Of a stretch of DNA of 64,000 nucleotides, positions 4,501-49,081 are shown one piece after another (the first letter of the stretch is position 1; the number at the start of each line of letters is the position of its first letter). The notes beneath the pieces were generated by a model, which was not told where the DNA came from, did no database searches, and saw nothing but the letters and a program-made list of their open reading frames with translations. A program made the translations under genes and the position numbers. Source of the DNA: Bacteroides sp. Lineage in GTDB: Bacteria; Bacteroidota; Bacteroidia; Bacteroidales; Muribaculaceae. The DNA is taken from contig JAAVBC010000017.1 in the NCBI GenBank assembly GCA_014803765.1, positions 1-64,000 of the forward strand, given 5' to 3'.

Positions 4501-5889
4501 ATGAATACACGAAATTTATCAGCAGCCCCCAAGACAGGAGAGCTCAAAGGAGTCCGCGGATTGATGCTGACCTTTACTCAGGATCCATTTCTGCATGATG
4601 AATCCAAATGCTACAAACTCTATACGGACGGGCTCGCTGTGATACGCGACGGACGGTTTATAGATGTCGGTGAATATTCCGAGATTGTGGGGAAGTATCC
4701 GGAACTCAAGGATATAGATGTGCATGAAAAATCTCTCATCATTCCTGGAATGATTGATTGTCATCTGCATTATGTGCAGAGTTCCATGATCGGCTCATTC
4801 GGTAAATCCTTACTGGAATGGCTCAATACATATACGTTCCCGACTGAAAGTAAATTTCGTGATAAGGCGTTTGCAGATGAGGTAGCCAAGATATTTTTCC
4901 GTCAGATTCTTTCTCAGGGCACTACCTCCGCCAATATTTTCGCCACAACTTTCGCCGAGAGTGTGGATGCCATTTTTGAAGAGAGTGAAAGATATAATAC
5001 GCGTATCATCAGCGGCAAGGTGCTTCAGGATCGGAATCTTCCCGAGTCATTGCGTGATCCCGACACTGAAGGCTCCATTATTCTCACTGAGAAGCTTATG
5101 GAAAAATGGCATAAGAGAGGGCGCCAGCTTTATGCCATTGTGCCGCGTTTTGCTCCGACATCCACTCCACTTCAGCTTCAGCTTGCCGGCGAGTTATATC
5201 AGCGGAATCTTGATAGGGGAGTGTATATGCACACTCATCTTGATGAAGCTCAGAGCGAGATTGATTGGGTTGCGGAATTATATCCGGATAGAAAGAATTT
5301 TACGGATGTTTACGACTATTACGGTTTGCTCGGACGGTCGTCTGTCCTGGCTCATTGCTGTATTGTCCGGGAGGATGAGTGGCAAACCCTTTATAAAAGG
5401 GAGTGTGGCGTGGCACACTGCCCTTCGAGTAATCTCTTCCTGGGCGATGGGGAATTCAAATTTTGGGAAGCTAAGAATCCGCAACGTCCCGTAAAAGTGG
5501 GGATGGCTACAGATGTCGGCGGGGGTACAAATTTCTCTATCTTCCGCCAGTTGGGCGAGGCTTATAAGGTGGCAATGCTGCAAAGTCATAGTCTGAGTGC
5601 TGTGCAGAGTCTTTATCTGGCAACCAGAGGAGCAGCGGAAGTGCTGCATCTCGACAATTGTATAGGTTCCATAGCCCCGGGCTATGAAGCGGATATGGCA
5701 GTGATTGACCTTGCTCCTACTGAATTTGCCGAATGGAGACTGAGTTTCGCAGAAGGGATATTTGAAAAGCTTTTCGTACTCATGACTCTCGGATTGGACA
5801 ATATGAACCGCGCTACTTATGTGGCAGGACGGAAAGTATTCGATCGCCACCGCACCCCGCAATTCCTCTATGCCGACGGCGCAAAGTAG
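4501..5889 (+). CDS. guaD: Guanine deaminase / amidohydrolase family
   Basis: PGMIDCHLHYVQ, YMHTHLDEAQSEI, VLAHCCIV, GMATDVGGGTNFSIFRQL. Confidence 0.88.
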   Translation: MNTRNLSAAPKTGELKGVRGLMLTFTQDPFLHDESKCYKLYTDGLAVIRDGRFIDVGEYSEIVGKYPELKDIDVHEKSLIIPGMIDCHLHYVQSSMIGSFGKSLLEWLNTYTFPTESKFRDKAFADEVAKIFFRQILSQGTTSANIFATTFAESVDAIFEESERYNTRIISGKVLQDRNLPESLRDPDTEGSIILTEKLMEKWHKRGRQLYAIVPRFAPTSTPLQLQLAGELYQRNLDRGVYMHTHLDEAQSEIDWVAELYPDRKNFTDVYDYYGLLGRSSVLAHCCIVREDEWQTLYKRECGVAHCPSSNLFLGDGEFKFWEAKNPQRPVKVGMATDVGGGTNFSIFRQLGEAYKVAMLQSHSLSAVQSLYLATRGAAEVLHLDNCIGSIAPGYEADMAVIDLAPTEFAEWRLSFAEGIFEKLFVLMTLGLDNMNRATYVAGRKVFDRHRTPQFLYADGAK

Positions 5890-5896
5890 CCCTCAG

Positions 5897-6215
5897 ACAT
5901 AAGCACATAAGGTTTTTCAGACATAAGCACAGAAACACATAATTTCTTGACATAAGCACATAAGCACATAAGCTTTTTATGGACAGAAGCACAAAAGTTT
6001 TTAGACATAGGCACATAAGTTTTTTGACATAAGTACATAAGCACAAAAGATTTTTAGAAATAAGCACATAAGTTTTTTCAGATATGCGTCCCTATAAAAG
6101 GATATATCTGCATTCATAAAAAGCCTTATGTGCTTATGGGCTTATGTGCTTATGTGCTTATGTCAAGAAAAATAGTCCTATGTGTTTATGTCAAAAAAGT
6201 ATGGGCTTATGTCTG
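5897..6215. repeat. Degenerate array of ~(g)acataagcacataagcttttt repeats followed by opposite-orientation copies
   Basis: Multiple copies 5897-6078 on +; reverse-complement copies (cttatgtgcttatg) 6120-6215. Confidence 0.9.
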
Positions 6216-36276: not shown

Positions 36277-36466
36277 AGCGGGGATAACAAAAAAAGAGGT
36301 TGCAATGTTAACTAATGTTGAATAAGTATAAACTGACTAAACGCATTCAACCAATGCAGACGGAGAGTGTTTTAATGGTACAAAAGCAATTGAAAAGTCT
36401 GCATCGGTTCGAGAGAATAAATGCAAGCGAGTAAAGTTTAGTTAGATATAGTTTATAGTGGAATCC

Positions 36467-36499
36467 GAGTGGGATGTCGCGTTGAGCGACATCCCACTC
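36467..36499. terminator. Perfect 14-bp stem hairpin between chromosome and ICE integrase
   Basis: gagtgggatgtcgc-gttga-gcgacatcccactc. Confidence 0.55.
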
Positions 36500-36610
36500 T
36501 CATTTTCAATAAGTTATAGCTCTAAGTGGATGATTTAGCGTGATTTATATTTAAATAGTTAAAGGACATAAAGAGACTTAAGGGTTAAGGAAAAGACTTA
36601 AAAAGACGCA

Positions 36611-36690: not shown

Positions 36691-37932
36691 TCAGATTTCA
36701 TCAAATTTTCCCATTTCGGACCTTCGCATATCATCAGCGATATCCATGTAAGGTTTCATAGCTGAAATATCAGAGTGTCCGGTCCATTTTATTATAATGT
36801 GCAGAGGTATCCCTAACATCAGTGCATTACAAACAAAAGTTCTTCTTCCGCAATGTGTAGTTATGAACTCATACTTTGGAGCGGTCTTTTCAACCTTTTG
36901 ATTGCCATAATACTGAGATACGGATGTAGGTCTATCTATTTTAGCCATGCGGGCTATAATACGAAGGTTGTTGTTGATGTCCTGATTATCTCGATGGGGG
37001 AAAAGTAGTCCGGATTGTGACGAGCGCATATATCTCATCATAATATCAATAGAGTACTTATTTAACTCTATTCTAATGTTTTTGGAAGTTTTCTTAATAT
37101 TCAAGATAATCTGCCCATTCTGAATATCCTCCTTACGCAGACTTATAGCATCCGAATATCTCAAGGACGTAAAGCACATAAAACAGAAGATGTCTCTATC
37201 AACCTCCAAAATGGGATATTGGGATAAATCTAATTCATATACCCTCATTAACTCTGCCCACGTCAAGAAAATAATTGGTTTAGGAATAGTTTTGATGTTG
37301 GGAGTCCAAAAATCAATTATTTTTCTCTCCAGATATTCCTTTTTTACTGCCCATTTCAAGAAACGTTTAAGAATATTGCAATGTTTTTCGATTACATTAT
37401 TCGCATACCCTTTGTGGTTGTTAAGTAATTGATGAGTTTGCTGAAAAGCAATGAAATCGTTAAGGACATCCTCATTAAGATCATGGAGTTCAATTTTATT
37501 ATTAAACTTTAAGAATAGATCCCTTACTTGATTAATGCTTTTTACCGTATTTGGTGCCCATTGTCTTATTGCAACCCCTTCACGTATAAAGGTATTCCAA
37601 GCTGCTTCTAAAGATGGAGTCTTGCGCTGAGACTCGCCCTCCAATAGAGACTTAAATTGATCTTTTGTAGGAATAATATCAATTATCTCAAATGAATAAA
37701 ATATTTCATTTATCTTATCAAGAAGAAGATCTATTCGCTTATTTATGATAGCAGCTGAGATTTTCCCTGAGCCATGTGTTGTATTCCGGATGCAGTGATT
37801 TTTATCCCACTTTTCCTTCTCAACCACGAATCCCACGCTTATTTGCACTTCATATTTTGCCCAGCGGACTCTTATTCTAAGGGGGAGCCTATCATGGAAT
37901 TTAAATCCAATATATCGAGTGATGGGAGTCAT
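36691..37932 (-). CDS. Tyrosine site-specific integrase
   Basis: CFTSLRYSDAISLRKEDI, THCGRRTFVCNALMLGIPLHIIIKWTGHSDISAMKPYMDI. Confidence 0.95.
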   Translation of the reverse strand: MTPITRYIGFKFHDRLPLRIRVRWAKYEVQISVGFVVEKEKWDKNHCIRNTTHGSGKISAAIINKRIDLLLDKINEIFYSFEIIDIIPTKDQFKSLLEGESQRKTPSLEAAWNTFIREGVAIRQWAPNTVKSINQVRDLFLKFNNKIELHDLNEDVLNDFIAFQQTHQLLNNHKGYANNVIEKHCNILKRFLKWAVKKEYLERKIIDFWTPNIKTIPKPIIFLTWAELMRVYELDLSQYPILEVDRDIFCFMCFTSLRYSDAISLRKEDIQNGQIILNIKKTSKNIRIELNKYSIDIMMRYMRSSQSGLLFPHRDNQDINNNLRIIARMAKIDRPTSVSQYYGNQKVEKTAPKYEFITTHCGRRTFVCNALMLGIPLHIIIKWTGHSDISAMKPYMDIADDMRRSEMGKFDEI

Positions 37933-46092: not shown

Positions 46093-46590
46093 TTAAAAAT
46101 GATAGTCTAATACTGCGCCGATATAGAGCTTCTCACCGATTTTAAGGTCTTGAATATAGTCCAGAAAATCCGCTGATTGATTGGCATATCCGGCTTGATT
46201 GTAGAAATCCGTTACAAAAAGGATGGAAGTATCGAGAGGATTGGCGATGCATTTTTCCAAGATACGTCTCGGTCCCAAGTTCTTGAAGTAATTATAGCTT
46301 GATACAGTAGATGCCAGTCGGTGGATTCTATTGACATGGCTACGGATGAAATCATCCAAACCTCCAATCAAAGTGAAGGACTCCCCATCCGGATTAAGTC
46401 GGAGACCTATTCGTGCGCAAAGTTCGCGAGTCGAATTTTTAAGGGCATCGTAACGATTTTCATCAGTTATGTGCTGCACATAGTCGATGATTGGGGCGTT
46501 TGTTCCGCCTGATACGCAATCTACGTCATCCTTCAGATATTCATCCTTTGGGATTGGCGATAGCGATAACTGTAGAATTAAGCTGTGCAT
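46093..46590 (-). CDS. Hypothetical protein directly downstream of structured module A
   Basis: Start codon abuts module at 46590/46591. Confidence 0.55.
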   Translation of the reverse strand: MHSLILQLSLSPIPKDEYLKDDVDCVSGGTNAPIIDYVQHITDENRYDALKNSTRELCARIGLRLNPDGESFTLIGGLDDFIRSHVNRIHRLASTVSSYNYFKNLGPRRILEKCIANPLDTSILFVTDFYNQAGYANQSADFLDYIQDLKIGEKLYIGAVLDYHF

Positions 46591-47274
46591 AGTTGTAAGC
46601 GTTTAAGATTTAATTTTTTCCCTTTTGAACCCCGAAGGGTTTATCTGACAGGGAAGATTTTATATGCAAGTTTGAACAATGCGTGTTGGAGATGATGCAA
46701 GGATATTATCGGAGAAATTTGAGGAATACCGCTATTTTTCAGCCCGAAGGGCGAAAAAGAAAAATGGTGGAAGGCTGCCACAAATTTCTCCGATAATAAG
46801 CGTAAGCGTTCCTTTCATCATCTCCGACAGGGATTGTAACTTAGCATATAAAATATTACCTGTCAGATAAACCCAAGGATTTCAAAAGAGCCAATAGACC
46901 TCACAATATCCAAACATCATACGTTCCACCCCTCATTATAAAAATTACTCACAATCTTCATATCACTTAATCTTCCAGGTCTGACAACGATCGAACCAAC
47001 GAATCTTTCCAAACTGCGCGGAGATAAACAGAAATCCTTAAGTATTGCGTGAAGCGCAAACCTGAGGATTTCTGTTTATCTCGGCGCGAAATGCGCAGCC
47101 ACAATACCTCCAACCTACTAAGTTCAGCCTACTCGCAAGAGAAATTACTTGAAGTGGAGCGTCAGCGACTCTTGATGTAATTTCTATTACGAGGAGAGAT
47201 GAACTTCCTAAAAATCAAATCGGCTGTCAGGCACTCTTCTGCTAAACTTGTTTTAGTGAAGAGTGGCGACAGCC
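46591..47274 (-). ncRNA. Multi-hairpin structured noncoding module, copy A (candidate large structured RNA; strand inferred)
   Basis: Four consecutive long hairpins; outer stem 46637-46652/46859-46874 perfect; paralogous copy at 48353-49052 with compensatory changes. Confidence 0.6.
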
Positions 47275-47379
47275 ACCCACCCATTTTTCCTATCGTGCTA
47301 TCAGAATCTAACCAGCGATGCCCCACTACTATTCAATCCGCTTCAAACTTAATGAAAAAGCAGGGAATTAATAGATTCC

Positions 47380-47676
47380 CTACTTTAGCCATCTGCAAGG
47401 CTCAATGGTGCGGTCAAGAAGAGCCAGCCATACCACCATTTCTGCCATCTCGTTCATGGAATCATAGGTGCTTACGATATCATATTTGAGAAATTTTCGG
47501 GTCACGAAATATTTGTTCTTAGTCTGACATTCCTTTTCTTCCCATGTTCCAATCTCATGTTCACCATTAGTGTCTTCGATCGTGAATATCCCGGTGGAAT
47601 AAAACCTGACAAGCAGATAAAGCTTTGATGTTCCATCGGCATAGATTTTGAAATCATCGTGTTTCATAACATTCAC
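47380..47676 (-). CDS. Hypothetical protein
   Basis: ORF overlapping upstream CDS by 23 nt. Confidence 0.45.
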   Translation of the reverse strand: MNVMKHDDFKIYADGTSKLYLLVRFYSTGIFTIEDTNGEHEIGTWEEKECQTKNKYFVTRKFLKYDIVSTYDSMNEMAEMVVWLALLDRTIEPCRWLK

Positions 47677-48052
47677 ATGATAAGGTCTCCTCCTTCTTAA
47701 ATCTTGCGAGCAAAGATTTAAGCCTATTATCCAAAATGTTTTTTAGGGGAGTCGGATTGAATTCTTCCTGTAGGCGTACAGCCAATTTCTTCTCAATACC
47801 ATACTGCGCGAGATCGGCTTCCAGTTCCATCAGTCCTTTGAGGGAAAAATAACCATACTCATCTTCTATCGGTCCGACTTCTATGCCGAACATTGTAATA
47901 TCATCACCTTCGGGGGTGCCTTCAAGAATAAACCATCGGATGCTCCCAAGAGCAAAAATTGCTACGCAAACGGCTTCATCACCTTTCCCATCCTGAGAGT
48001 ATAAGGGGAATTGACAAAGTCTCTTCTTTGCTTCCTCTGTAATTGTATTCAT
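47654..48052 (-). CDS. Hypothetical protein
   Basis: Acidic ORF (DUF2958-like appearance). Confidence 0.6.
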   Translation of the reverse strand: MNTITEEAKKRLCQFPLYSQDGKGDEAVCVAIFALGSIRWFILEGTPEGDDITMFGIEVGPIEDEYGYFSLKGLMELEADLAQYGIEKKLAVRLQEEFNPTPLKNILDNRLKSLLARFKKEETLSCECYETR

Positions 48053-48072
48053 ATAAATATACTTTAATGTGG

Positions 48073-48143
48073 TGGTGAAAGAGAGAATCGAACTCTCATT
48101 TTCGCAAGGTACGCGAGGTTTTAACCACTTAAACTATTTCACC
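48073..48143 (-). tRNA. tRNA-like gene (anticodon ambiguous, possible ACC; possibly degenerate)
   Basis: Acceptor GGTGAAA/TTTCACC, D-arm GTTT-AAGTGGTTA-AAAC, T-arm GAGAG-TTCGATT-CTCTC; anticodon stem imperfect. Confidence 0.55.
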
Positions 48144-48220
48144 AGTCATAATCCTCTATTTTCACAAACCGAAGATTACTGCTCAATTAACTAAATATTC
48201 AATCAAATTTCTACAGTAAC

Positions 48221-48352
48221 TTACATTGGCATTCCCAACGCATATCCCATCAGAAGGAAAGCGTATAGGGAAAGAAAGGTCAGAGCTACAAACCCAAACA
48301 TGAATAGGGCATATCCAAGCTCTTTCTTATAGGGGAATTTTTTAATCTTCAT
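48221..48352 (-). CDS. 43-aa single-TM protein directly downstream of structured module B
   Basis: MKIKKFPYKKELGYALFMFGFVALTFLSLYAFLLMGYALGMPM; not in ORF track because short. Confidence 0.5.
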   Translation of the reverse strand: MKIKKFPYKKELGYALFMFGFVALTFLSLYAFLLMGYALGMPM

Positions 48353-49052
48353 AGTTGTAAGCGTTTAAGATTTAATTTTTTCCCTTTTGAACCCCGAAGG
48401 GTTTATCTGACAGGGAAGATTTTATATGCAAGTACAGACAATGCGTGTTGGAGATGATGCAAGGATATTATCGGAAAAATTTGTGGAATACCGCTATTTT
48501 TCCGCCTGAAGGGCGAAAAAGAAAAATGGCGGAAGGCTGTCACAAATTTTTCCGATAATAAGCGTAAGCGTTCCTTTCATCATCTCCGGCAGGGATTGTA
48601 ACTTAGCATATAAAATATTACCTGTCAGATAAACCCAAGGATTTCAAAAGAGCCAAAAGACCTCACAATATCCAAAGATTAGATATTCCACCCCTCATTA
48701 TTTTAATATCACACTATTTCACTATCCCCCTATTTCCATATCACATAAATTCCCAAGTAAGACAACCATCCAATCAACGATTCTTTCCAATCTGCGCGGA
48801 GATAAATAGAAATCCTTAAGTCTTGCCTGAAGGGCAGACCTAAGGATTTCTATTTATCTCGGCGCGAAATGCGCAGCCCCAATACCTCCAACCTACTAAG
48901 TTCAGCCGGCTCGCAATAGGAATTGCTTGAAGGGGAGCGTCAGCGACTCTTGATGTAATTTCTATTACGAGAAGAGATGAACTTCCTAATTACCAAATCG
49001 GCTGTCAGGCTCTCTTCTGCTTAACTTGTTTTAGTGAAGAGTGGCGACAGCC
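48353..49052 (-). ncRNA. Multi-hairpin structured noncoding module, copy B
   Basis: Same hairpin order as copy A with compensatory base-pair changes. Confidence 0.6.
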
Positions 49053-49081
49053 AATTAGTGTAATGAGGAAAAAGAATGTTA

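Follow-up and report, generated by a model that had tools for sequence, protein, structure and literature searches.

Structured modules before small genes of Bacteroidales integrative and conjugative elements: candidate single-stranded-DNA promoters

The closest functional parallel to the sequences described here is offered by the Frpo/ssi elements of the plasmids F and ColIb-P9 (Masai and Arai 1997; Bates 1999; Nasim 2004; PMC9849209; PMC11541004). Plasmid F carries two Frpo copies, 92% identical and about 5 kb apart, each placed before leading genes whose early expression depends on it (PMC9849209). In the title of their 1997 paper (cited in PMC11541004), Masai and Arai describe Frpo of F as both a promoter and a site of primer-RNA synthesis. 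Published surveys, among the open PMC papers, used similarity to Frpo or TTGACA/TATAAT boxes and left Bacteroides unmentioned; no paper linking single-stranded promoters and Bacteroides was found in the same collection. Surveys limited in this way would have missed the whole phylum. Another structured element for which a function in single-stranded DNA has been considered is the STAXI motif (RF01728; PMC2864571), located near ssb and antirestriction genes.

The modules analysed here, detected in integrative and conjugative elements (ICEs) of Bacteroidales, share several features with Frpo/ssi. They contain a long imperfect hairpin directly before small genes, putatively acting early in establishment; several near-identical copies may be present in one element, all in one direction; promoter boxes are contained within the folded strand; the genes are oriented as the tra and relaxase genes, and are of similar types, coding for ParB-like and small DUF proteins. 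They differ from Frpo/ssi, known from enterobacterial plasmids, in their hosts, in the type of the boxes, which correspond to the primary sigma factor of Bacteroidota and not to TTGACA/TATAAT, and in sequence, where no similarity was detected. STAXI, although also a structured element with a considered single-stranded function, is made up of tandem pseudoknots and belongs to Enterobacteriales, while the modules match no Rfam family. The GOLLD and ROOL RNAs are, like the modules, large, complex and carried on mobile elements, but their covariance models do not match, and the function of the modules would be exerted at the DNA level. Taken together, the features reported below make it quite likely that each module is a single-stranded-DNA promoter, comparable to Frpo, of a Bacteroidales ICE.

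Two paralogous modules in one element

The window, a stretch of 64 kb, is the first part of a 176,861-bp contig from a Bacteroidales MAG. An ICE of about 44.6 kb is delimited by attachment-like direct repeats, the left one at 36453-36515 and its partner at 81051-81113 of the contig, and contains a tyrosine integrase gene (36691-37932), tra genes and genes for a MobB-type relaxase with MobA (contig 77.5-79.6 kb, minus strand). A second copy (93%) of the terminal 3' part of the integrase gene (window 36697-36811) is found at contig 81308-81422, immediately beyond the right attachment-like repeat, suggesting that what is left of a related element may adjoin the ICE. Palindromes located directly upstream of mobA (contig about 79550-79700) are a candidate oriT. 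This region begins with CATAGTTGTTAAAA, resembling the end of the two modules; it was evaluated as a possible further module and discarded, since, apart from this similar start, it does not match the module profile.

The two modules of about 690 bp, pointed out in the initial annotation, were recovered by a genome search, which aligned 46591-47275 with 48353-49060 at 90% identity and revealed no third copy in the genome. Module A (46591-47275, minus strand) adjoins the ATG of a 165-aa ORF (46093-46590, minus strand), and module B (48353-49053, minus strand) that of a 43-aa ORF (48221-48352, minus strand). The homology between them ends exactly at the ATG of these two different ORFs (46590 and 48352), and a role as leader or promoter module is proposed for both. 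The 165-aa ORF, which module A would drive, belongs to the MHSKIFQIT family, relatives of which are found behind modules in other elements. A DUF2958-like ORF (47654-48052, minus strand) is located further behind module B; elsewhere, a DUF2958 protein is encoded directly behind modules. Within the ICE, a tRNA-Gly gene (anticodon ACC; 48070-48143, minus strand) separates the module B gene from the DUF2958-like ORF. Because all genes behind the modules lie on the minus strand, the leftward polarity initially assigned to them is right.

Each module folds into one long composite rod and three further hairpins, in agreement with the succession of long hairpins first noticed in both copies. The rod of module A (46637-46874) reaches -79.2 kcal/mol on the plus strand (z -18.8), against -67.2 kcal/mol on the minus strand; for that of module B (48399-48636) the corresponding values are -81.1 (z -17.6) and -69.8 kcal/mol, so that in both the plus strand is more stable by 11-12 kcal/mol. 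When compared with shuffled DNA, the rods have z between -13 and -19 (DNA parameters), and the whole modules -15.3 and -12.2. The further hairpins, designated C, D and E, are located upstream of the rod, at 47016-47087, 47129-47196 and 47222-47274 in module A and at 48794-48865, about 48907-48974 and 49000-49052 in module B. At the other end, a short hairpin AACCC-UUCG-GGGTT (46628-46641 in A, 48390-48403 in B, both minus strand) replaces a GAAGCC/GGCTTC hairpin of related modules. It would be contained in the leader of an mRNA for which the start is predicted at about 46661 (A) or about 48423 (B), on the minus strand.

The two copies, folded independently, have 125 pairs in common. Only six substitutions fall within these 250 positions, and they form exactly three double changes, the same compensatory pairs quoted in the initial annotation. 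The wider statement that the differences between the copies fall as paired changes holds for these three, but does not extend to the rest: six of the 59 substitutions are accounted for by compensations, and pairs of the same hairpins, above all of hairpin D (47129-47196), are disrupted by several changes on one side only. Considering these two copies alone, the three paired changes may also have originated from 'correction' of one hairpin arm on the other by template switching. As a full account, quasipalindrome template switching was rejected, since it leaves unexplained both the placement of the promoter boxes and the covariation found in 59 relatives.

A family of modules in Bacteroidales

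DNA searches with the window module revealed no full relative in plasmids, phages and 111 genomes of the same genus, nor did exact patterns derived from it, used to scan viral and genome contigs. BLASTN against 72,556 plasmids, F included, gave no match, and no sequence similarity to Frpo was detected. ParA- and ParB-linked loci were also tried as a source of relatives and discarded, as the fold scan returned only ordinary terminators and unrelated repeats. The lead to the family was provided by relatives of the 165-aa ORF, whose upstream DNA has short motifs in common with the rod. A pattern restricted to the rod tip, GGCAGCCTTCCRCAA-N(5-35)-GGGTATTCC, which includes neither promoter box, gave 85 matches in 76 loci, nearly all from Bacteroidales (Bacteroides, Phocaeicola, Prevotella, Parabacteroides, Muribaculaceae and Rikenellaceae). 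Two module-bearing contigs (L138 and L172) are labelled as Clostridia/Ruminiclostridium MAGs, and are probably mis-binned Bacteroidales DNA.

A profile search of the loci detected 98 copies in 77 loci, with a maximum of four per 8 kb; in each of the 15 multi-copy loci, all copies are on the same strand. A profile built on 59 copies, from which the window rows had been left out, matches module A at 46608-46856 (minus strand, E=1.2e-20) and module B at 48370-48618 (minus strand, E=9.1e-21). Since a profile free of window sequences matches both at E about 1e-20, the window modules are divergent members of the family. The part conserved among members is limited to the rod, about 240 nt long. When two of the relatives were compared by BLASTN with the 72,556 plasmids, the only matches were four Bacteroidales plasmids, and for a third relative none was found. 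Neither window module matches any Rfam family, and no Rfam family was found among the relatives above the gathering cut-off; the rod family, with at least 77 Bacteroidales loci besides the window, is apparently previously undescribed in this order.

In nearly all of 63 non-redundant copies, an ORF starts 145-256 nt after the rod-tip anchor. The region immediately preceding the ATG has a conserved short hairpin and a conserved AAAAGGGAAAA. The first ORFs behind the modules code for PcfK-like, ParB-like and DUF2958 proteins, for members of the MHSKIFQIT family, for DUF1281/Api92-like proteins (just under Pfam's cut-off) and for several families without a Pfam name.

The orientation of the modules relative to the relaxase gene was evaluated in ten ICEs, the one of the window and nine from other genomes. 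In all ten the modules run with the MobB relaxase gene and are located 26-53 kb on its 3' side, corresponding, in the circular form, to the opposite side of the mob-proximal region. The same layout is found in F, where ssb, the ParB-like gene and psiB share the direction of the tra genes; oriT of F lies between the leading genes and the tra genes. As a general rule, the relaxase is encoded in the lagging region (PMC11541004), and we infer from this rule both the position of oriT and the polarity of the transferred strand. Should oriT lie upstream of mobA, transfer would reach the window modules after about 11.5 and 13.3 kb of the leading region, with the plus strand as the one transferred.

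Covariation, folding strand and promoter boxes

The alignment of the 59 relatives defines a nested structure of 39 pairs. Pairing holds in 89.7% of the cells, and sliding the partners by 1-3 columns lowers this value to 32-50%; the structure was derived from the same alignment and the percentages lean towards it, but this bias alone does not account for the extent of the difference from the slid versions. The covariation score is 0.376, versus a maximum of 0.137 for slid and 0.147 for shuffled versions, and changes on both sides are observed in 27 of the 39 pairs; as the copies are related, cell counts are inflated and do not correspond to independent events. RNAalifold, run without any hint, recovers the tip and the two helices that enclose the -7 box described below, and covariation is present on both sides of the predicted bubble in which this box lies. 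The proposal that pairing is selected over sequence, first made on two copies, is thus borne out by massive covariation in the rod.

Computed with DNA parameters, the antisense strand is more stable than the sense strand in 52 of 59 copies (p about 1e-9). Likewise, among the cells which are not Watson-Crick pairs, A.C on the sense strand, equivalent to G.T on the antisense strand, is found 78 times and G.T on the sense strand 40. The asymmetries in folding and wobbles and that of the window rods argue against an RNA element of the sense strand and fit a folded transferred strand; all three are statistical and drawn from related sequences. The UUCG loop, initially taken as favouring an RNA transcribed leftward, is ambiguous: the hairpin at 46628-46641 would indeed be contained in the predicted mRNA leader, but the loop at the rod tip reads C-GAA-G on the plus strand, and C-GAA-G is a DNA mini-hairpin of unusual stability.

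The consensus of the primary sigma factor of Bacteroides, sigma-ABfr, is composed of TAnnTTTG at -7 and TTTG near -33 (PMC7366714). On the antisense strand, TAnnTTTG is present at one fixed place in 46 of the 63 non-redundant copies, and with at most one mismatch in 60, while shuffled copies contain it in 0.68 cases on average and 3 at most. All 46 exact copies have a TTG 17-20 nt before the -7 box, mostly at 18-19 nt. A relative with consensus boxes is, for example, the copy of Phocaeicola vulgatus ATCC 8482 at about 4.239 Mb. In the sense direction, no promoter made up of TTG and TAnnTTTG was found in any copy within 430 nt. In duplex DNA the promoter of the antisense arm points away from the gene. 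DNA folds computed for the antisense strand give the TTG columns a paired fraction of 0.93-0.94, the interior of the -7 box one of only 0.35-0.54 and the sequence facing it one of about 0.2-0.4, whereas the pairs just outside this bubble reach 0.88-0.98. The columns of the -7 box are 95% identical, those of the facing unpaired stretch 46%. This pattern would fit a pre-melted promoter, in which the box, read as single-stranded non-template, is conserved, its partner is free and the walls covary.

The window copies retain fold and position, and match the host-type boxes only within one mismatch per box. The -7-like box, TAACTTAG, belongs to the 3' arm of the plus-strand fold and is found at 46837-46844 in module A and 48599-48606 in module B, and is one base off TAnnTTTG in both. 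The weak -33-like boxes (46813-46815 and 48575-48577, plus strand) read TTT in place of the TTG of relatives; their register is derived from the profile alignment, which in module A places the box 21 nt before the -7-like one. Fewer bases are predicted to be unpaired in the window copies, and the -7 box of module B is predicted to be mostly paired. Because each box is one base off the consensus, these copies may be weaker, specially adapted, i.e. tuned to the sigma factor of their host, or decaying versions. For comparison, a simple TTGACA/TATAAT scan of F Frpo did not locate its boxes, though the long rods before the leading genes were reproduced.

Proposed mode of action and alternatives

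The single-stranded promoter reading is built on features computed directly: family, covarying fold, boxes, predicted bubble, folding-strand bias and orientation. In the duplex, the left arm of the rod would hold an antisense sigma-ABfr promoter facing away from the gene, towards which no consensus promoter is directed. The antisense strand, corresponding to the plus strand of the window and presumably the one transferred, would enter the recipient as single-stranded DNA and fold into the rod. The -33 and -7 boxes of the non-template strand would then be provided by its 3' arm, the 5' arm serving as template, with the -7 box already melted because the opposite stretch is not complementary. RNA polymerase would start about 70 nt before the ATG and run into the small gene, until second-strand synthesis dissolved the fold and switched expression off. 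The predicted outcome is an early burst, specific to the recipient, of proteins which may serve establishment or anti-defence.

Extended to the whole family, it is likely that single-stranded promoters, independently evolved and read by the primary sigma factor, occur order-wide in Bacteroidales ICEs, and provide transient early expression of dozens of small genes in the recipient. The small genes behind the modules are uncharacterised; if the reading is true, they are candidates for anti-defence and establishment functions exerted before the second strand is made. Modules would then mark the unnamed small genes which act first when ICEs of gut bacteria enter a new host, thus giving direct access to anti-defence genes of the human gut, and would lend themselves, as a simple tool open to testing, to expression restricted to Bacteroides recipients.

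Among the alternatives, the least improbable, though still unlikely, is that the rod serves mainly to initiate synthesis of the complementary strand (ssi, or single-strand origin), its RNA being a primer and not an mRNA. Priming follows the same folded-strand logic and would suit the presence of several copies per element; on its own, however, it does not require the near-constant distance to the start codon of a small ORF observed in nearly every copy examined. The two roles are compatible and not mutually exclusive.

It is somewhat harder to credit that the modules are structured 5' leader RNAs of the sense strand, such as riboswitches, attenuators or stability elements of ICE genes. They do precede sense-strand ORFs, with a conserved hairpin and motif before the ATG, and in the window one UUCG loop sits just there; but the sense strand is the worse folder in 52 of 59 copies, wobbles favour the antisense strand, and no sense promoter is found upstream. 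Moreover, the most conserved unpaired stretch reads as a -7 box for sigma-ABfr, accompanied by the -33 box, and under the single-stranded promoter model only the last 70 nt or so would enter the mRNA.

There is very little chance that the boxes, which are intact on the antisense strand in the duplex, form an ordinary antisense promoter whose product would be an antisense or divergent transcript, and that the inverted repeat acts as a protein-binding site or cruciform. Such a promoter would fire away from the gene and, since the modules of multi-copy loci all run one way, into the back of the preceding unit, and it leaves unexplained a mismatched bubble placed exactly at -7 and flanked by covarying pairs.

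Size, complexity and a nearby tRNA gene initially suggested a noncoding RNA transcribed leftward, large and ornate like GOLLD/ROOL; this is barely conceivable, as covariance-model searches of the window modules and their relatives gave no match to these or other Rfam families, conservation is confined to the rod, the better fold, the wobbles (78 versus 40) and a conserved unpaired box which is a promoter element point to the other strand, and the copies lead protein genes.

Outside the rod, the strength of the three additional hairpins of the window (47016-47274) is unusual. Marked upstream structure is present in 16 of 58 copies examined, module B of the window included. A relative from the same genus (L100/L167, about 5610-5672) has a near-perfect hairpin of about 25 bp upstream of its rod, resembling those of the window. 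In the scan of the window, the strongest short-window fold outside the modules (z about -6.6) is located at 6001-6200, near a tRNA-Ser gene.
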